NCBI GenBank assembly: GCA_013362835.1
Contig: JABFVJ010000269.1
Span: 1 to 9,193, forward strand
Length of the DNA: 9,193 bases
Direction: 5' to 3'
From: Nonomuraea sp.
GTDB taxonomy: Bacteria; Actinomycetota; Actinomycetes; Streptosporangiales; Streptosporangiaceae
In this document: positions 364 through 8,016 of the stretch, one piece after another
Position numbering within the stretch: position 1 is the stretch's first letter
How the letters are laid out: each line of letters begins with the position of its first letter
Notes under the pieces: generated by a model
Seen by the model: the letters and a program-made list of their open reading frames with translations, nothing else
The model's database searches: none
What the model was told of the DNA's origin: nothing
Translations under genes and position numbers: made by a program

Positions 364-1110
364 TCAGCAGGAGATCCCGCCGTCCACCGGGATGACCGTG
401 CCCGTCAGGTACGCCCCCGCCCGCGAGGACAGGAAGATGGCCGCGCCCGCCATGTCGTCCGGCCGGCCGATCCTGCCCAGGGGCACGTTCGAGGCGATGG
501 CCGCCCGGGTGGACGGGTCGTCCAGCGCGAACGCCATCATCTTGGAGTCGAACGGCCCAGGCGCGATGGCGTTGACCGTGATGTGCTCCTTGGCGAGCTG
601 CTTGGCCAGGTGGCGGGTCAGCATGTGCACGGCCGACTTGGTCGAGGAGTAGGCGTAGCTCTCCAGGGAGGGCACCTTGATGCCGTCGATCGAGCCCACG
701 TTGATCACGCGGGCCGGGTCGTCGGCGTCGGCGGCCGCCCTGAGCTGCGGCAGGAACCTCTGGGTCAGGTAGAACACGCCCTTGACGTTGATGTCCCAGA
801 GCTTGTCGAAGGCGTGCTCCGGATACTCCTCAAGCGGCGCGCCCCAGGTCGCGCCCGCGTTGTTGACCAGCACGTCCAGCGGGCCCTCCACCGCCGAGAC
901 CAGCTTGTCCAGCCCTTCCGGCGTCGACAGGTCGGCCTGGACGGCCGTGCAGCCGAGCTCGGCGGCGGTCTTCTCGACCTCGGCCGTCTTGCGCGCGGAG
1001 ATGTGGACGGTCGCGCCCGCCTCGACGAAGCCGGCCGCGATCATGCGCCCGATGCCGCGCGAACCGCCGGTCACGACGACCGTCTTGCCTTCCACGGAGA
1101 ACAGAGTCAT
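364..1110 (-). CDS. Short-chain dehydrogenase/reductase (SDR), RhlG/FabG-like
   Basis: A 248-residue classical SDR, presumably a soluble NAD(P)-dependent oxidoreductase. It shows the Rossmann motif TGGSRGIG (14-21), NNAG (83-86), Asn108, catalytic Ser140, the YxxxK pair Tyr154/Lys158, and the C-terminal PVDGG. Arg18 in the glycine loop favours NADP(H). The substrate is unknown; 3-oxoacyl-ACP reductases of the RhlG type are the nearest group I recognise. I chose ATG 1110 because MTLFSVEGKTVVVTGG is the usual family beginning. An in-frame ATG at 1128 would add six residues, and neither start has a good ribosome site. The ATP-grasp gene on the same strand stops at 1145, only 34 bases upstream, and a 14-base palindrome fills most of that gap. 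The SDR may therefore be co-transcribed with it, separately controlled, or both. Its stop abuts the stop of the convergent ATP-grasp ligase. Confidence 0.85.
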   Translation of the reverse strand: MTLFSVEGKTVVVTGGSRGIGRMIAAGFVEAGATVHISARKTAEVEKTAAELGCTAVQADLSTPEGLDKLVSAVEGPLDVLVNNAGATWGAPLEEYPEHAFDKLWDINVKGVFYLTQRFLPQLRAAADADDPARVINVGSIDGIKVPSLESYAYSSTKSAVHMLTRHLAKQLAKEHITVNAIAPGPFDSKMMAFALDDPSTRAAIASNVPLGRIGRPDDMAGAAIFLSSRAGAYLTGTVIPVDGGISC

Positions 1111-1144: not shown

Positions 1145-2350
1145 CTAGCTGCCCGCGTCCTTCACCCAGAGTCGCAGCAGCCCCCTGAAGTGCTCGGTGA
1201 ACCGCTCGCGCTCGCCCTCCGGGTACGTCGCCGCCACGGTCTCGACCAGCAGCCGGTCGAACTCCGGCCCGGCGACCCACTCCAGGACGACCTCGTCGAC
1301 GTGCCCCAGCCGGCTCGCGCAGAACTCCTCGTACCGCTCGACCTCGAAGTACCGGTCGGCCAGCCGCCGGTACTGGGCCAGCCGCTCCTCGTAGGAGCCC
1401 TCGACGGCGAAGTAGTCGCGGGTCTCCAGGTCGATCCGCGGCCTGCGCCGGGTGGCCACGCAGAACACGCTCCACTTCACCAGCGCCTTGATCGCCCAGG
1501 GGAAGTAGTAGTGCAGGCTGGTCAGGGCCACGTCGGGGCAGGCGTTGGCGTAGTCGATCGGGTGCACGTCGGCGCCCTTGACCAGGGTCTCGCAGGAGTT
1601 GAACTCCCATCGGAAGAACGCGTTCACCAGCCGCCCGACCGTGACGACCTCTTCGCCGACCGACGGCGAGAGGAACGCGTGGTCGACCGCGTACCGGTCG
1701 TGCATCGGCTCGTCGGGGCGGAAGCGCATGACCATGGTCTCCGCGCCGATCGACAGTGACCTGGCGAACGCGTCGTAGCCCTCGACGGACTGCTGGAGGT
1801 GCATGAGCATCTCGCCGCTCTGGTCGTAGGCGCGGTGCAGCTCGTCCCGGTCGCGTACGCGGGAGACGCCCCGCCAGGCGCCGCCGTCGTACGGCTTCAT
1901 GAACAGCGGGTAGCCGATGCCCTCGGCGACGGCGTCGAGGTCGAAGGACCGGTTGTAACGCTCGGCCGTGTAGGCGTACCGGGCGTTGTCCACCGGGTTC
2001 TTGTACGGCACCAGCACCGTCTCCGGCACCTTCAGCCCGAGCCGCATCATCGCGCAGTAGGCCGCGTGCTTCTCCATCGACTGGAACGTGAACGGGCTGT
2101 TCAGCAGGTAGACGTCGTCCATCATGGAGATCTTCTTGAGCCACTCGCGCGGGTGGTAGTACCAGTACGCCAGCCGGTCGATCACCAGGTCGTGACGCGG
2201 CCTGGCCCGCAGGTCGAACGGCTCGATCGTGATGCGCTCGACGTCGAACCGCCCCACCCCCTCGATCGGCCCTAACCGGCGCAGCACGGTCTCGAACGCC
2301 GACGGCCAGTCCTCCTCGGTCCCCAGCAGCAGCCCAATGAGATGACGCAC
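1145..2350 (-). CDS. Uncharacterised ATP-grasp-like protein
   Basis: A 401-residue protein from GTG 2350, which has GGAGGA six bases upstream. A longer frame from GTG 2386 would overlap the DUF2252 stop as GTGA but has no ribosome site. Recognisable pieces are SMEKHAAYCAMMRLGLKVPET (91-111), like the Lys-containing helix that opens the central ATP-grasp subdomain; YPLFMKPYDGGAWRGVSRV (147-165), with Lys152 and a glycine turn like the nucleotide-binding strand and loop; and an acidic stretch GADVHPIDYANACPD (259-273) in the place of the metal-binding Asp/Asn block. No membrane segment is seen. The order and spacing fit an ATP-dependent carboxylate ligase fold, but the final block differs from the standard ExN motif, so activity is uncertain. 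It is second in a minus-strand set after the DUF2252 gene. I do not recognise a characterised homologue. Confidence 0.7.
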   Translation of the reverse strand: MRHLIGLLLGTEEDWPSAFETVLRRLGPIEGVGRFDVERITIEPFDLRARPRHDLVIDRLAYWYYHPREWLKKISMMDDVYLLNSPFTFQSMEKHAAYCAMMRLGLKVPETVLVPYKNPVDNARYAYTAERYNRSFDLDAVAEGIGYPLFMKPYDGGAWRGVSRVRDRDELHRAYDQSGEMLMHLQQSVEGYDAFARSLSIGAETMVMRFRPDEPMHDRYAVDHAFLSPSVGEEVVTVGRLVNAFFRWEFNSCETLVKGADVHPIDYANACPDVALTSLHYYFPWAIKALVKWSVFCVATRRRPRIDLETRDYFAVEGSYEERLAQYRRLADRYFEVERYEEFCASRLGHVDEVVLEWVAGPEFDRLLVETVAATYPEGERERFTEHFRGLLRLWVKDAGS

Positions 2351-2382
2351 GCTCGCTCCTCCGGCGGTCGCCGCGCGGGGGC

Positions 2383-3678
2383 TCACACGCCGGGCAGGCG
2401 ACCGTTCCTGAACAGGTCGACGAACCGTTGATGGTCTTCACGAGCCTGTGCCCCGTAACGGTGCGCGAAATCCACCAACATGGCGATGAATCCGTCGGTG
2501 TCGCCGTCGATGACCGCCACGATGGCCTCCTCGGTCGAGAAGTCCACCAGGTCGTGGCTCGACTCGTCGTCGGCCACCGAGTGCATGCGCGCCACCGCGC
2601 GCCCGAGGTCGCGCACGATCGACCGCAGCTCGTCGGGCTCGTTCACGTCGTCCCAGTCCAGGTCCGCCGAGTACGGCGACACCTCGGCCACGAGCTGCCC
2701 CACCCCGCCCAGCGTCGTGTACCCGAGCCACGGATCGGCGTACGCCTGCAGCGCCCGCTGCGACTCGGCCGTGCGGTGCCCCTGGTGCAGGAAGTAGGAG
2801 GCGGCCTTCTCGTTGGCGACGTAACGCGCCACGGCCGGTACCTGGGCCTGTTTCATGTAGAGGATGACGTCGTTCTCCAGCGCCTGCGAACGCCCCTCCA
2901 GCAGCAGGTTGTACGACGGGAGCCCCGCCGACCCGATGCCCACGCCCTTGCGCAGCGCCACGTCCTTGACCACGTGCTCCACCGGCCCGGACGGCGTGGG
3001 CAGCGTCGCCAGGTAGTCCTCGAACGCCGCGAGCACCGCCTGCCGCGTCCCGTCGTCCACCTCCTCGCGCCCGTCCATGATCGCGAAGCGCCGGTCGTAG
3101 TCGTCGATCACGGTCTCGACGTCGAGCATCGCGACCCGCGTGCTGAGCCGCGCGGTCTGCAGCACCCGGTGCAGCACCCCGCCCGTGGTGTCCAGCGTGA
3201 GCGACCCGATCGCGTCGTCGCCCCCGGTCGCGATCCCGTGCAGCTCGGTCAGGTACGCCCGCCCGAACTCGCCCACCAGCGTGCTGATCGTCTCGTCCGA
3301 CAGCGCCTTGGCGTAGCCGATCAGCGCCACGCTCGCGGCGAAGCGCTTGAGGTCCCAGACGTACGGGCCGACGTACGCCTCGTCGAAGTCGTTGACGTTG
3401 AAGACCAGTACCCCGGAGGCGTTCATGTACGTGCCGAAGTTCTCCGCGTGCAGGTCGCCGTGGATCCACACCCGGCCGGTGGGCTCGTCCAGGTAGGAGT
3501 CGTCGGCGAAGTCGCCGGTCAGGTCGGCGTAGAAGAGGCTGGCGCTGCCCCGGTAGAAGGCGAACGGGGAGGCCGCCATCTTGCGGAACTTGCGCCTGAA
3601 GGCGGCCGGGTCCCGCCGGATCGACTCGCCGAACTCGGTGATCAGGACGTCGAGCAGGAAGGAGGAGCGTGTGCCCAT
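2383..3678 (-). CDS. DUF2252 family protein (kinase-like, phosphotransferase fold)
   Basis: A 431-residue protein of the DUF2252 family, near normal family length. Conserved blocks in order: SPFAFYRGSASLFYADL (37-53); HGDLHAEN (73-80), which looks like the catalytic loop of aminoglycoside-phosphotransferase-type kinases; NDFDE (96-100), a DFD-like metal site; YVWDLKRFAAS (106-116); a glycine loop GVGIGSAG (245-252); and Lys276 in YMKQA, like the ATP-binding lysine. The glycine loop and lysine come after the catalytic loop, the reverse of ordinary kinases. Phosphotransfer is inferred from these motifs; the family has no settled substrate. ATG 3678 has no close ribosome site, but a TACTGT box 7 bases upstream suggests a leaderless transcript. 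Its stop (2383-2385) lies 32 bases before the start of the ATP-grasp gene, so the two probably form an operon. Confidence 0.85.
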   Translation of the reverse strand: MGTRSSFLLDVLITEFGESIRRDPAAFRRKFRKMAASPFAFYRGSASLFYADLTGDFADDSYLDEPTGRVWIHGDLHAENFGTYMNASGVLVFNVNDFDEAYVGPYVWDLKRFAASVALIGYAKALSDETISTLVGEFGRAYLTELHGIATGGDDAIGSLTLDTTGGVLHRVLQTARLSTRVAMLDVETVIDDYDRRFAIMDGREEVDDGTRQAVLAAFEDYLATLPTPSGPVEHVVKDVALRKGVGIGSAGLPSYNLLLEGRSQALENDVILYMKQAQVPAVARYVANEKAASYFLHQGHRTAESQRALQAYADPWLGYTTLGGVGQLVAEVSPYSADLDWDDVNEPDELRSIVRDLGRAVARMHSVADDESSHDLVDFSTEEAIVAVIDGDTDGFIAMLVDFAHRYGAQAREDHQRFVDLFRNGRLPGV

Positions 3679-3725: not shown

Positions 3726-3747
3726 CCCTGACCGGGCCAGGTCAGGG
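3726..3747 (-). terminator. Hairpin at the end of the fadE30-ipdF operon
   Basis: CCCTGACC (3726-3733) and GGTCAGGG (3740-3747) form a perfect 8-bp stem with a 6-base loop. It spans the ipdF stop codon and ends the minus-strand operon 48 bases before the DUF2252 start. No U-run follows, as is usual for actinomycete hairpin terminators. Translation up to the stop codon would compete with folding. Confidence 0.5.
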
Positions 3748-4515
3748 GTGCTGCGAGGAGACCGAGACGGCCTCTCCCGTCATGTACGAGGAGTAGTCGC
3801 TCGCCAGGAAGACGATCACGTTGGCCACCTCCCACGGCTCGGCCGACCGCCCGAACGCCTCCTTGGCCGCCAGCTCCGCCAGCAGTTCCTCGCTCGTCAC
3901 CTTCGCCAGGAAGGGGTGCACGGCCAGTGACGGCGCCACGGCGTTGACCCGGATGCCGTGCTCGGCCACCTCCATCGCGACGCACCTCGTCAGCGCCATC
4001 ACCCCGGCCTTGGCCGCCGCGTAGTGCGCCTGCCCGCGCTGGGCCCGCCAGCCGGCCACCGAGGCGTTGTTCACGATCACGCCGGAGCCCTGGCCGATCA
4101 TGTGCCGGAGCGCGGCCCTGGTGCAGCGCATGGTGCCGTTGAGCGTGACGTCGACGACCGCGTGCCACTGCTCGTCGGTCATCTCCGTGAGCTCGGCCGT
4201 GCCGCCGAGGCCGGCGTTGTTGACCACGACGTCGAGCCGGCCGTGCGCCTCCACCACCGCGTCGAAGAGCGCCAGCACCTGCGCCTCCGACGTCACGTCG
4301 CACGGCACGGCGAGCGGCTTGACGCCGGTCAGCTCGGTCAGGGCGTCGGCGGCGGCGCTCAGGCGGCGCTCGTGCCGGTCGGAGACGACGATCGTGGCCC
4401 CCTCCTCGGCGCAGCGCCTGGCGGTCGCGTAGCCGATGCCCGCGCCGGCGGCCGCGGTCACCAGCGTGACCTTGCCGTCGAGCAGGCCGTGCGACTTCGG
4501 GTAGGGCGGGGCCAT
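3742..4515 (-). CDS. ipdF: IpdF, SDR of steroid C/D-ring (HIP) degradation
   Basis: A 257-residue SDR that matches mycobacterial IpdF (Rv3559c) as I remember it, along its whole length and beyond the generic SDR signature: GHGLLDGKV-like start (SHGLLDGKV, 8-16), TAAAGAGIG dinucleotide loop (20-28), NNAGLGG (99-105), NNASVAGWRAQ (149-159) with catalytic Ser152, HYAAAKAGVMALTRC (164-178) with Tyr165/Lys169, EAFGRSAEPWEVA (219-231), and the unusual tail LASDYSSYMTGE...SVSSQHP. IpdF interconverts the 5-hydroxy and 5-oxo forms of the CoA-linked methylhydrindane during catabolism of HIP, the product left after rings A and B of cholesterol-type steroids are removed. ATG 4515 has GGAG five bases upstream and lies 11 bases after the fadE30 stop, so the two are co-translated. 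In mycobacteria ipdF and fadE30 are also adjacent in the KstR2 regulon, which supports the call. Confidence 0.88.
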   Translation of the reverse strand: MAPPYPKSHGLLDGKVTLVTAAAGAGIGYATARRCAEEGATIVVSDRHERRLSAAADALTELTGVKPLAVPCDVTSEAQVLALFDAVVEAHGRLDVVVNNAGLGGTAELTEMTDEQWHAVVDVTLNGTMRCTRAALRHMIGQGSGVIVNNASVAGWRAQRGQAHYAAAKAGVMALTRCVAMEVAEHGIRVNAVAPSLAVHPFLAKVTSEELLAELAAKEAFGRSAEPWEVANVIVFLASDYSSYMTGEAVSVSSQHP

Positions 4516-4526
4516 CCGTGCTCCAA

Positions 4527-5648
4527 TCAGCGGGGGAGTCCCAGAGTGCGCTCGGCGATGATGTTCCGCTGGATCTCACTCGATCCGGCATAGATCGTGT
4601 CCGCCCTGCTGAACAAATACAAGCGCTGCAGCTCGTTCAGCCCGCCGTCCGCCACGAGCCCCGCCTTTCCCTGGACGTCCCGCGCCAGCTCGCCCAGCCT
4701 GCGGTGCCACTCCGACCAGTACAGCTTGGCGATCGACACCTCCGGGCCCGGGTCGGGGCCGAGCATGCGCAGGGCGTTCATGCGCATGATCTCCAGCTCC
4801 AGCCACGACCTGACGATCCGGTCGCGCAGCACGGGGTCGCCGGCCGCGCCGGTGCGCCGGGCCGTCTCGATCACCTTCGCGAGCTCGCGCCTGAACCCGA
4901 TCTGCTGGCCGAGCGTGGACGCGCCGCGCTCGTGGCCCAGCGTGGCCATCGCGACCCGCCAGCCGTCGCCGGGCGCCCCGAGGACGTTGCCCGCCGCCGT
5001 GCGCGCGCCGTCGAAGAACACCTCGTTGAACTCCGAGGTGCCGGTGAGCTGCCTGATCGGGCGTACGGTGACGCCCGGCCCGCGCATCGGCACCAGCAGG
5101 TACGACAGCCCGTGATGCCGCTGCGAGCCCTCCTCCGTACGGCACAGGACGAAGCACCAGTCGGCGACGTGCGCCAGCGACGTCCACACCTTCTGCCCGG
5201 AGATCACCCACTCGTCGCCTTCGAGGTACGCCCTGGTCCGGACGTTGGCCAGGTCGGAACCGGCCTCGGGCTCGGAGTAGCCCTGGCACCACAGCTCCTC
5301 GCCGCGCTGGATCGGGGGGAGGAAACGGTCCTTCTGCTCGTCGGTGCCGAATTCGAGGATGGTCGGGCCGATGAGGCCCTCGCCGACGAGACCCACTCTG
5401 GCGGGGGCGTCGGCTCGCGCGTACTCCTCGTAGAAGGCCACCTGGTCGTCGAGGGAGGCGGCGCGGCCGCCGTAGCGACCGGGCCAGCTCAGGCAGGTCC
5501 AGCCGGCCTCGCCGAGGTGGCGTTCCCAGGCCAGGCGCAGGTCGTGGCCCTCGTGCTCCCTGCCGGGGCCGCCGAGCCCGCGGGCGCCGGCGAACTCGCC
5601 CGACAGGCTCTCCTCCAGCCAGGCGCGGGCCTCCTCACGAAGGCTCAA
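4527..5648 (-). CDS. fadE30: FadE30-type acyl-CoA dehydrogenase for HIP-CoA
   Basis: A 373-residue acyl-CoA dehydrogenase, matching mycobacterial FadE30 (Rv3560c) from recall in many specific stretches: GLGGPGREHE (24-33), FYEEYARADAP (72-82), ELWCQGYSEPEAGSDLA (118-134, FAD/substrate block), GQKVWTSLAH (151-160), RVAMATL..ERG (231-242) and IQRNIIAERTLGLPR at the end. FadE30 introduces the first double bond into the propionyl-CoA side chain of HIP-CoA, passing electrons through FAD. The motif that carries the catalytic Glu in MCAD-type enzymes reads YAGSSEIQ, with Ala for Glu; Glu240 (HERGAS) sits where isovaleryl-CoA dehydrogenase has its base and is the likely substitute. I chose TTG 5648 (MSLREEARAW), with GGAGG five bases upstream. 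It overlaps the reductase gene by 14 bases, implying translational coupling. ATG 5690 would overlap by 56 bases. Confidence 0.87.
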   Translation of the reverse strand: MSLREEARAWLEESLSGEFAGARGLGGPGREHEGHDLRLAWERHLGEAGWTCLSWPGRYGGRAASLDDQVAFYEEYARADAPARVGLVGEGLIGPTILEFGTDEQKDRFLPPIQRGEELWCQGYSEPEAGSDLANVRTRAYLEGDEWVISGQKVWTSLAHVADWCFVLCRTEEGSQRHHGLSYLLVPMRGPGVTVRPIRQLTGTSEFNEVFFDGARTAAGNVLGAPGDGWRVAMATLGHERGASTLGQQIGFRRELAKVIETARRTGAAGDPVLRDRIVRSWLELEIMRMNALRMLGPDPGPEVSIAKLYWSEWHRRLGELARDVQGKAGLVADGGLNELQRLYLFSRADTIYAGSSEIQRNIIAERTLGLPR

Positions 5649-6156
5649 AGAACCCTCCGTAGCCGCCCTGGAAGAACACCAGCGGGCCACCCTCGGCGTA
5701 CGTGTCCAGCTGCAGCACCCGGGCCACCACGATCATGTGGTCGCCCGCCGGGTGCTCGGCCTCGATCAGGCAGTCGATCCAGGCCAGGGCGCCTTCGAGC
5801 ACGGGGTTGCCGCCCGGTGAGCCGCTCCACTCCAGACCGGCGAACTTGTCGCCGCCCTTGGCCGCCATCTGCGCGCACACCGGCTGCTGGTGCTCGGCCA
5901 GCACGTTCACGGTGACGACCTTCGCGCCGCGCACCCGGGGCCAGCTCGTGCTCGTGTGCGCCACGCAGAAGGCCACCAGCGGCGGGTCGAGCGAGACCGA
6001 CGTGAAGGAGTTGGCGGCCAGGCCGCAGGGCTCGCTGTTGGCCGGGTCGAGCGCGGTGATCGCCACGACGCCGGTCGCGAACCTGCCGAGCACCTGACGG
6101 AAGCGCCGGCTGTCGAGGTGGCCGTTCCCGCTGTGCTGTGAAGGGCCGGGCGGCAT
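5635..6156 (-). CDS. HsaB-like flavin reductase (FMN-binding, flavin_reduct domain)
   Basis: 173 residues from ATG 6156 (GGAG five bases upstream). Family blocks: FRQVLGRFATGVVAIT (19-34), GLAANSFTSVSLDPPLVAFC (45-64), VNVLAEHQ (83-90), DKFAGLEW (103-110), GDHMIVVARV (138-147) and PLVFFQGGYG (158-167). This is the small NAD(P)H:flavin oxidoreductase type that supplies reduced flavin to a partner monooxygenase; HsaB of the steroid HsaAB hydroxylase is the closest I recognise. No oxygenase is encoded in the window. It is first in the operon with fadE30 and ipdF and overlaps fadE30. An in-frame ATG at 6249 with a stronger ribosome site (GAGGAGG, eight bases away) would add 31 residues, but that stretch has about 77% G/C at third positions (hand count), lower than the gene body, and reads as disordered, so I keep the short form. 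HsaB itself has only a short lead before PRTFR. Confidence 0.83.
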   Translation of the reverse strand: MPPGPSQHSGNGHLDSRRFRQVLGRFATGVVAITALDPANSEPCGLAANSFTSVSLDPPLVAFCVAHTSTSWPRVRGAKVVTVNVLAEHQQPVCAQMAAKGGDKFAGLEWSGSPGGNPVLEGALAWIDCLIEAEHPAGDHMIVVARVLQLDTYAEGGPLVFFQGGYGGFFEPS

Positions 6157-6257
6157 GGCGGCTCCGTTGCGAATCCTGCTGCGCTGTTGGGGCGTCGGAA
6201 GGCCGCGACAGCCGTCCGGCGCGATCAGCCGGGCAGCGTGTGTGCTCATGGGGTCCG

Positions 6258-6285: not shown

Positions 6286-6299
6286 ACCAAGCGCTTGCT
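6286..6299. promoter_or_regulatory. KstR2-type operator 1 (perfect match)
   Basis: ACCAAGCGCTTGCT matches AnCAAGnnCTTGnT, the 14-base operator of the TetR-family repressor KstR2, at all ten fixed positions; its core CAAGCGCTTG is a perfect palindrome. It covers the predicted start site of the minus-strand operon (about -3 to +11). A 15-base exact copy (CCAAGCGCTTGCTTG, 6287-6301) recurs 132 bases away in operator 2. In mycobacteria KstR2 is released by HIP-CoA, which fits the fadE30 and ipdF genes controlled here. Confidence 0.8.
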
Positions 6300-6302
6300 T
6301 GG

Positions 6303-6332
6303 ACAGTAGGTCCATTCCGAAAATCCTGTCAA
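6303..6332 (-). promoter_or_regulatory. Promoter of the reductase-fadE30-ipdF operon
   Basis: On the minus strand TTGACA (6332-6327) and TACTGT (6308-6303) are separated by 18 bases. The predicted start is near 6296, inside operator 1, so a bound repressor would block initiation directly. A second -10-like TATGAT (6286-6281) lacks a -35 box. Confidence 0.65.
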
Positions 6333-6377
6333 CCCGCCGCACGTGGCCGAGCCGGGCGCGACGCGCACGACGCCCGG

Positions 6378-6407
6378 TTGACATGGGCGAAAACCGCGAC
6401 ATAGCGT
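6378..6407 (+). promoter_or_regulatory. Promoter of the thiolase-DUF35 operon
   Basis: TTGACA (6378-6383) and TAGCGT (6402-6407) are separated by 18 bases, placing the start near 6414, one base before GTG 6415. The -10 box covers the in-frame GTG at 6406, so that codon cannot be the start for this transcript. Operator 2 begins four bases further on. Confidence 0.65.
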
Positions 6408-6414
6408 GAGGTAC

Positions 6415-7587
6415 GTGCCCAAGCGCTTGCTTGATTTCCGGGACGTCACCGCCGTCGCGGGCATCGGCTACACCCCCTTCACCAAGAACTCGGGCGTCAG
6501 CACCCTCACCCTGGCCTGCCGCGCCGTCCTGGCCGCCCTGGAGGACGCCGGCCTCGGACCGGACGCCGTCGACGGCCTGGCCACCCACCGAGTCGGCGAC
6601 TCCGCCCCGCCCACCCTCGTGGCCCCCGCCCTGGGCATGAACGACCTCACCTGGCACCTCGACCAGTTCGGCGGCGGCAGCGTCTCGCACGCCGTCGTCG
6701 GCCAGGCCGCCCTCGCCGTCGCGACCGGCATGGCCGAGACGGTCGTCTGCTACCGGGCGATCAACGCGCGCTCCGAGTTCCGCATGGGCGGCACCGGCCG
6801 CGGCGTCCCCGCCGGCCCGGAAGTCCAGTACCAGGCCCCGTACGGCTACGTCGCGCCCCCGCAGCAGTACGCCATGTACGCCCGCGCCCACATGCTCAAG
6901 TACGGCACCCGGCCCGAGCACTTCGGCCGCCTGGCGGTCACCCAGCGCGCCAACGCGGTCAAGAACCCGCGGGCGCTCATGCGTACCCCGATCACGCTGG
7001 AGGACTACCTGGCGAGCAGGTGGATCGCCGAGCCGTTCCGCCTCCTGGACTGCTGCCTGGAGACCGACGGCGCCTGCGCCCTCGTCGTCACCACCGCGGA
7101 ACGCGCCCGCGACCTGCGCAGGCGCCCGGTCCTGATCTCGGCGGCGGCCTGGGGCGGCGGCACCTCCCACCTGTCGGGGACCGGCCCCGCCGACCCTACG
7201 GTGACCGCCGCCGCCGAGCTGGCCCCCCGCCTGTACGCCCAGGCCGGCCTCGGCCCCTGCGACGTCGACGTGGCCGAGATCTACGACTGCTTCACGTACT
7301 CGGTGATCGTCCAGCTTGAGGACTACGGCTTCTGCGCCAAGGGCGAGGGCGGCCCGTACGTGGACTCGGGCGCGACGGCCCTGGACGGCGAGCTGCCCGT
7401 GAACACCCACGGGGGCTTCCTGTCGGAGGGCTACGTGCACGGCGTCAACCACATCGCCGAGGCGGTCGCGCAGCTCAGGGGCGAGGCGGGGGACCGGCAG
7501 GTCCGCGGCGCCGAGGTGGCGCTCTCGACCGCCCAGCCCGGCTACATCCTGCCCGCCACCTCCGCGCTGATCCTCAGGAGGTCGTGA
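6415..7587 (+). CDS. Thiolase-fold lipid-transfer protein, probable acyl-CoA retro-aldolase
   Basis: 390 residues from GTG 6415, giving a nearly leaderless start; TTG 6427 (MLDFRDVTAVAGIGY) is an alternative. It belongs to the SCP-x/Ltp branch of the thiolase superfamily: VTAVAGIGYTPF (11-22), FGGGSVSHAVVGQAALAV (85-102), LLDCCLETDGACALVV (210-225), EIYDCFTYSVIVQLEDYGF (288-306), NTHGGFLSEGYVHG (330-343) and the PGYILP end. The usual nucleophilic Cys and the GHP histidine are missing; Tyr340 stands where GH is expected and Tyr290 is another candidate. This pattern is that of Ltp2-type aldolases, which cleave beta-hydroxyacyl-CoA rather than perform thiolysis. It diverges from the reductase-fadE30-ipdF operon under a shared KstR2-like control and precedes a DUF35 gene, the usual partner. 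The substrate (hydroxylated HIP-CoA side chain) is inferred. Confidence 0.82.
   Translation: MPKRLLDFRDVTAVAGIGYTPFTKNSGVSTLTLACRAVLAALEDAGLGPDAVDGLATHRVGDSAPPTLVAPALGMNDLTWHLDQFGGGSVSHAVVGQAALAVATGMAETVVCYRAINARSEFRMGGTGRGVPAGPEVQYQAPYGYVAPPQQYAMYARAHMLKYGTRPEHFGRLAVTQRANAVKNPRALMRTPITLEDYLASRWIAEPFRLLDCCLETDGACALVVTTAERARDLRRRPVLISAAAWGGGTSHLSGTGPADPTVTAAAELAPRLYAQAGLGPCDVDVAEIYDCFTYSVIVQLEDYGFCAKGEGGPYVDSGATALDGELPVNTHGGFLSEGYVHGVNHIAEAVAQLRGEAGDRQVRGAEVALSTAQPGYILPATSALILRRS
6418..6431. promoter_or_regulatory. KstR2-type operator 2 (one mismatch)
   Basis: CCCAAGCGCTTGCT matches AnCAAGnnCTTGnT at nine of ten fixed positions (C for the first A). It lies at about +5 to +18 of the plus-strand promoter and inside the first codons of the thiolase gene, where a bound protein would act as a roadblock. 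It shares CCAAGCGCTTGCTTG with operator 1; conservation over 15 bases exceeds what the coding constraint requires. Confidence 0.72.
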
Positions 7588-7590
7588 CCC

Positions 7591-8016
7591 ATGCTCCTCG
7601 GTCCCCGCCCGGAACCCGACCGCGACTCCGCCGAGTGGTGGGAGCGCCTCGCGCGGGGGGAGTTCGCGGTGCAGCGCTGCGCGGGCTGCGGCACCGCGCG
7701 TTTCCCCGCGCGGGCCTTCTGCCCGTCCTGCCGGGGCGAGTCCTGGCACTGGGAACGGGCCGAGCCCGAGGGCGTGGTCGAGAGCTGGATCGTCAACCAC
7801 CAGCCCTTCCTGCCGGGCGCGGGCGAGCCGTACGTCGTCGTGACGGTCAGGCTGGACGCGGTCCCCGGCTGCCTCGTGCACGGGAACTGGCGCGGCGCCC
7901 CGCCGCAGCCGGCCCAGCGGGTACGCGGGGTCCGCAGGCGGATCGACGACCGGCTGACGCTCCTGGACTGGGAGCCGGTGGATGGTCATCCGTCCGGGCG
8001 TACGTCCTCGCGCTAG
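7591..8016 (+). CDS. DUF35 Zn-ribbon/OB-fold protein, partner of the thiolase-fold enzyme
   Basis: A 141-residue protein with a short N-terminal helix (AEWWERLARGEF, 14-25), a zinc ribbon with Cys30/Cys33 and Cys44/Cys47 (CAGC and CPSC), and an OB-fold from about 60 to 127 ending in LLDWEPV. Such proteins bind thiolase-fold lipid-transfer enzymes and are needed for their aldolase activity; in the cholesterol side-chain system the same domain is fused behind a MaoC hydratase in ChsH2, whereas here it stands alone with no hydratase domain. ATG 7591 follows the thiolase stop by three bases, and AGGAGG nine bases upstream lies inside the thiolase 3' end, so the two are translated in series as expected for a stable complex. 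Confidence 0.85.
   Translation: MLLGPRPEPDRDSAEWWERLARGEFAVQRCAGCGTARFPARAFCPSCRGESWHWERAEPEGVVESWIVNHQPFLPGAGEPYVVVTVRLDAVPGCLVHGNWRGAPPQPAQRVRGVRRRIDDRLTLLDWEPVDGHPSGRTSSR

Follow-up and report, generated by a model that had tools for sequence, protein, structure and literature searches.

Paired KstR2-type operators at divergent promoters of a Nonomuraea catabolic locus, and their probable control by a KstR2 paralogue

Nine KstR2 sites from mycobacteria and Rhodococcus, three of them EMSA-positive, are given in Kendall 2010 (PMC3068626). The operators described there have in common with the locus studied here the core CAAGnnCTTG, the location at divergent promoters and a fadE30-ipdF target. 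They differ in that one site serves each divergent pair, against two here; in the present locus, moreover, the motif is a 16-mer that is stricter and includes a third half-site, codons enclose one of the two sites, and the additional targets are a flavin reductase, an Ltp/DUF35 pair and luciferase-like enzymes. A second reference system is the KstR2 regulon of HIP catabolism, as described in PMC5380842: the corresponding cluster of the nearest genome examined (G001) contains orthologues of fadE30, ipdF, fadA6 and echA20 plus an ipdB-like gene, whereas in genomes of the family KstR scores below cut-off, KshA_C is absent or weak and HsaC is mostly absent. The DNA analysed here, referred to as the window, is a stretch of 9,193 nucleotides from Nonomuraea sp. 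(assembly GCA_013362835.1, contig JABFVJ010000269.1).

The initial annotation of this DNA reported a 15-base sequence, CCAAGCGCTTGCTTG, repeated 132 bases apart. Both copies were found, at 6287-6301 and 6419-6433 (start-to-start distance 132), as two exact matches in the window; with up to three mismatches, shuffled sequences gave a mean of 0.24 matches, and two or more in 5 of 200 shuffles. The fit to the published KstR2 consensus AnCAAGnnCTTGnT claimed for the two copies was confirmed by a mismatch scan, with no mismatch at 6286 (10 of 10 fixed positions) and one at 6418 (9 of 10). When up to two mismatches were allowed the window yielded six matches, against a shuffle mean of 1.02, and none of 200 shuffles reached six. 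Judged from the window by itself, the repeat is modestly above chance; it is convincing because it is conserved across genera. The reductase-side operator (6287..6302, minus strand; 16-mer CCAAGCGCTTGCTTGG in plus-strand letters) touches the minus-strand -10 element and spans the expected transcription start, as had been annotated. The thiolase-side operator, CCAAGCGCTTGCTTGA (6419..6434, plus strand), lies within codons 2-7 of the thiolase gene, and in this respect the earlier placement had to be amended, since this copy is inside the reading frame and not merely after the start.

The reductase-side operator precedes three minus-strand genes. These encode a HsaB/FerA-like flavin reductase (5644..6249), whose 176.6 bits are below the HsaB cut-off of 230; an acyl-CoA dehydrogenase orthologous to FadE30 (4527..5660), with 61.8% identity to the gene that occupies the FadE30 position in a mycobacterial genome (G101); and a short-chain dehydrogenase orthologous to IpdF (3742..4515; NF005880, 430 bits, over the cut-off), whose G001 counterpart shows 63.1% identity to the G101 gene. 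Gene order in G101 is fadA6-kstR2-ipdF-fadE30-operator-fadD3-like gene, the genes being named by position. That fadE30 and ipdF are known mycobacterial KstR2 targets, as previously stated, agrees with their being orthologues of genes beside kstR2 in G101, and the operator thus precedes orthologues of KstR2-regulon genes. On the plus strand, a probable retro-aldolase of the Ltp2-like thiolase fold (6415..7587) is followed by a DUF35/ChsH2-type partner (7591..8016). The best solved relatives of the two are chains A (305 bits) and B of the Ltp2-ChsH2(DUF35) complex 6ok1, which presents the same gene pair and originates from Thermomonospora curvata. In mycobacteria the Ltp2-ChsH2(DUF35) pair is regulated by KstR, whereas the window pair stands under a KstR2-type site. 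The genes of the two operons of this soil actinomycete probably serve to degrade steroid-like or fatty compounds. Elsewhere in the window, a perfect 14-base palindrome, ACCGACTGGTCGGT (1129-1142), precedes an SDR gene (364-1110, minus strand) and resembles another TetR-type operator. A 413-aa protein encoded at 1145-2386 (minus strand) had no Pfam match, and its gene overlaps a DUF2252 gene by 4 bases; a relative is present in 10 of 54 loci.

The 54 loci just mentioned (L020-L072 and L098) were taken from the best 80 of 583 loci in a thiolase scan and compared with the window at the divergent promoter. A flavin-reductase (FlvR) match was found beside the thiolase in 49, divergent in all but L042, and at the thresholds used FadE30 was found in 35 and IpdF in 22 of the 54. 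For operator counts, the 55 loci including the window were reduced to 47 paired ones by dropping five without a FlvR match, L042 (FlvR in the same direction), and L043 and L057 (a single site each). Two more loci, L073 and L082, were inspected and contained no operator site. On the reductase side, both palindromic cores of CCAAGCGCTTGCTTGG were exact in 46 of the 47 paired loci, the exception being L041, where the scanned stretch contained no genuine left site. Among the thiolase-side operators, the inner core was exact in 39 and the outer one in 28 of 47. The reductase-side 16-mer is almost invariant through Nonomuraea, Streptosporangium, Actinomadura and Nocardiopsis. In 100 genomes, 156 sites matched the 16-mer with at most one mismatch versus 26 for the reversed pattern, the genomes compared being related and the counts not independent. 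The nine sites of Kendall 2010 (PMC3068626) fit this 16-mer at 14-15 of 16 positions, and all nine carry G16, a position beyond the published 14-mer, although they are not independent, two M. tuberculosis sites being identical to those of M. smegmatis. The M. tuberculosis kstR2-gene site, EMSA-positive according to the same paper, differs from the left operator of the window at 1 base of 16. These matches suggest for KstR2 an operator that exceeds the published motif, with three half-sites in 16 bases.

Both operators are associated with promoters of the same form. TTGACA with 18-base spacing, noted at both promoters in the initial annotation, was seen on both strands: TTGACA-N18-TACTGT for the reductase-fadE30-ipdF operon (6303..6332, minus strand; TTGACA 6332-6327, TACTGT 6308-6303) and TTGACA-N18-TAGCGT for the thiolase-DUF35 operon (6378..6407, plus strand; TTGACA 6378-6383, TAGCGT 6402-6407), the latter with a GTG 7 nt past the -10 element. 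A strict sigma-70 scan of the window recovered neither of the two. Each -10 hexamer matches TATAAT at 3 of 6 positions and fits the form TAnnnT. Among the paired loci, TTGACn-N17-19-TAnnnT directly adjoins the reductase-side operator in 32 of 47 (gap 0 in 31, gap 4 in one) and lies upstream of the thiolase-side operator in 32 of 47, with a background of about 0.0003 per 9-nt slot; on either side, it was unrecognised in 15 of 47.

The search for the regulator covered G001 and its relatives. In G001 a TetR gene, hereafter class A, is situated about 18 kb away from the operator pair; it is preceded by a KstR2 consensus site and has a fadA6-like gene divergent to it. The top database match of the class A protein of G001, at 100% identity, possibly comes from the assembly to which the window belongs. 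Class A is 40% identical to mycobacterial KstR2 and carries the KstR2 recognition helix SGSLYHHF in all 30 rows; CAAGnnCTTG was found upstream of class A in 20 of 30 loci and was not present in the upstream stretch scanned of the other 10. Class A and one or more sites were present in each of the 23 genomes in which this thiolase occurs (E 1e-150 or better), and among 77 genomes without the thiolase class A was found in 41, a site in 17 and echA20 in 24. Since two or more sites were counted in only 29 of 64 class A genomes, many class A genes occur without this 16-mer.

KstR2 itself had been named as the regulator in the initial annotation. That the sites belong to a true KstR2 orthologue and answer to HIP-CoA would be consistent with the consensus match, with the orthology of fadE30 and ipdF, and with the position of class A, which adjoins fadA6 in G001 and G004. 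However, a second group of KstR2-like genes, class B, is closer to KstR2 (203.7 bits to the KstR2 structure 4w97, versus 173.1 for class A) and shows the order ipdF-classB-fadA6 in the 10 fetched regions that reach it, of 11 fetched. Its helix reads [GA]GSLYYHF in 15 of 15 distinct genes. In an outgroup-rooted tree, class A fell outside KstR2 plus class B with support 95/71, in one tree with three distant outgroup rows and very long branches, a feature that speaks for the orthologue; an earlier tree lacking an outgroup (22 rows, 26 of 46 loci missing) did not decide the position of class A. In view of the class B score, the outgroup tree and class B synteny, the identification of class A as the KstR2 orthologue was dropped.

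The promoters of class B regions point the same way. In the 11 class B regions (L163-L173), echA20 and ipdF are preceded by 20 TAACAAnnGTT sites in all, most of which read TAACAAnnGTTTGGTnG, whereas CAAGnnCTTG occurs only once in their 132.7 kb. The exact sequence TAACAAnnGTTnGGTnG was present in 11 of 11 class B genomes versus none of six others (five family genomes without class B, plus G101), and its reversed pattern gave one match in all tested genomes together. In addition, G001 and G004 have window-type sites, with neither a class B match nor a class B operator. Control of the window sites by a KstR2 orthologue responding to HIP-CoA is, on this evidence, distinctly unlikely. What stands of the earlier proposal is the KstR2-family motif, its position at the promoters, the orthology of FadE30 and IpdF and, in G001, a KstR2-like repressor with the same kind of site at its own gene; the repressor that co-varies with the sites is the sister paralogue class A, class B being the better KstR2 orthologue, with a different operator. 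The regulator of the window sites is probably a KstR2 paralogue and not KstR2 itself. Pairing of helices with operators predicts that class A would bind both window sites and CCAAGCGCTCGCTTGG, and class B only TAACAAATGTTTGGTGG. In another genome (G033), a KstR2-like protein (L148) was observed with the mixed helix SGSLYYHF and a nearby site, CCAAACGCTTGCTTGG, a possible intermediate between the operator codes.

The distribution of echA20, present in 23 of 23 genomes carrying this thiolase, was informative as to how the two regulators share their targets. Its promoter, read in 26 of 47 echA20 genomes, contains TAACAAnnGTT in 15 of 15 genomes with class B, and a CAAG-type site, for example CCTAACGCTTGCTTGG, 1-3 mismatches from the 16-mer, in 11 of 11 genomes without class B, absence being defined as no second match at E 1e-30, in most genomes among 29 scored candidates. 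In the 12 of 23 thiolase genomes with class B, echA20 lies within 60 kb of class B in 11 and of class A in none; in the 11 without a class B match, it lies within 60 kb of class A in nine and on another contig in two. Across these genomes, which share ancestry, the simplest reading would be a takeover of the C/D-ring genes by class A in lineages that lost class B. The idea that C/D-ring genes, absent from the class A cluster of Nocardiopsis, are missing from that genus was rejected, echA20 being located elsewhere, beside class B. These genomes offer a natural experiment on the partition of operators between paralogous repressors and on the transfer of a regulon from one repressor to the other.

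The operators of two luciferase-like monooxygenase genes read CCAAGCGYTCGCTTGG (26 and 5 rows, the 26 rows of the first gene including at least two double-counted records, L052/G053 and L072/G074). Position 10 is C in 30 of these 31 rows versus T in all 94 reductase- and thiolase-side rows, so that in the luciferase-like operators the inner half-site is broken. Such an outer-only form, together with sites at class A itself that are mostly inner only, could be explained by a composite site shared by two regulators, one on the inner CAAGnnCTTG and the other on the outer CCAAGCnnnnGCTTGG. Yet among the predicted KstR2 sites one, from R. jostii, likewise has the outer form only, and no second regulator tracking the outer form was found, in a search that was not systematic. 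We regard a site shared in this way as a minor possibility. In G001 the luciferase-like operators are located on contig C31 at 49188 and 105821 (L101 and L104) and are one conserved base off those of the window.

Codons 2-7, after an initial ATG or GTG, coincide in frame with the thiolase-side operator in all 20 sequences compared (the window, 17 from Nonomuraea, one from Thermoactinospora and one from Planotetraspora). These codons encode PKRLLD in the window and [PAV]KRLL in other Nonomuraea, and the constant frame would also be expected of a conserved N-terminal peptide whose codons happen to resemble an operator. However, rare leucine codons are retained: Leu5 is TTG in 20 of 20 and Leu6 is CTT in 17 of 20, versus 10 of 440 for TTG and 2 of 440 for CTT at 22 other invariant Leu columns of the same sequences. 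A single codon is used throughout in 8 of 155 invariant degenerate-residue columns, and three of those eight are operator codons 3-5. Moreover, Streptosporangium, Planobispora and Actinomadura keep the same operator upstream of the reading frame, with a different N-terminus. A mere peptide is therefore very improbable, and the copy is treated here as an operator. The start codon lies 6-7 nt past the -10 element in 16 of the 17 sequences with a recognised promoter; in L041, in-frame GTGs lie at 6 and 9 nt. In Nonomuraea the thiolase gene is probably leaderless, its mRNA starting at the start codon, so that the right operator would also be read as codons 2-7. In an operator that doubles as codons, coding and regulatory constraint would be separable through synonymous changes.

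Combined, the comparisons establish, at the level of sequence, the motif, the promoter geometry, deep conservation, the joint occurrence with class A and a switch of operator type at echA20 where class B was not found. We consider it quite likely that both sites serve a KstR2-family TetR repressor as operators, the class A paralogue being the strongest candidate. A class A dimer would cover the transcription start on the left and the first transcribed bases on the right, would block RNA polymerase at both divergent promoters and would be released by a CoA thioester derived from the pathway substrate. The left operon would then provide the flavin reductase (for FMNH2 supply), FadE30 and IpdF, and the right one the Ltp2-type aldolase and its DUF35 partner. 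We propose that FMNH2 from the reductase may feed monooxygenases, and that the pathway may deliver C/D-ring-like acids.

Candidates for such monooxygenases are encoded in the class A cluster of G001, which adds two luciferase-like monooxygenases, CoA ligases and an acyl-CoA dehydrogenase. In a structure-sequence search, the two luciferase-like proteins were nearer to FMN than to F420 enzymes; NCBIfam matches pointed to an FMN family for one and to an F420 family for the other, with scores below the cut-off in both cases. The class A regulon has a conserved core of flavin reductase, the Ltp/DUF35 pair and luciferase-like monooxygenases; KstR is lacking, as KshA and HsaC mostly are. KstR failed to reach the cut-off in any of the 10 family genomes tested; KshA_C was absent in six of 10 and weak in four (24 to 107 bits, versus 306 in G101); and HsaC had no match in 10 of 12 genomes searched, with matches of 35-41% in G001 and G028. 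As this core is not the cholesterol C/D-ring set, HIP-CoA is only a putative inducer. These data suggest a steroid-like catabolic pathway in organisms mostly without known upper steroid genes. Thermomonospora curvata belongs to this family. Since growth of T. curvata on cholate is reported in PMC4810484, bile-acid-like substrates are possible for the class A pathway. In the literature covered, which took in few subscription papers, no description was found of the class A regulon or of KstR2 paralogues in the genera compared.

A wider reading, put forward tentatively and at somewhat less than even confidence, would join these elements. Streptosporangiaceae would have two KstR2 paralogues with different operator codes (half-sites CCAAGC/GCTTGG versus CCAAAC/GTTTGG; helix changes S to G/A and H to Y), and class A would run an undescribed pathway of FMN monooxygenase and aldolase that bypasses the KstR/Ksh/Hsa route and supplies the HIP pathway with bicyclic, C/D-ring-like acids. 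Some genera, Nonomuraea among them, would have lost class B, with its genes re-wired to class A through operator change, and at one class A target the operator would have become part of a protein.

Two further observations concern individual genes. One SDR gene in the clusters compared is Rv3548c-like by position and is not IpdC. A gene for a sigma-70 family factor lies in the class A cluster of G001 at L102 8840-9346, between the operator pair and echA20.
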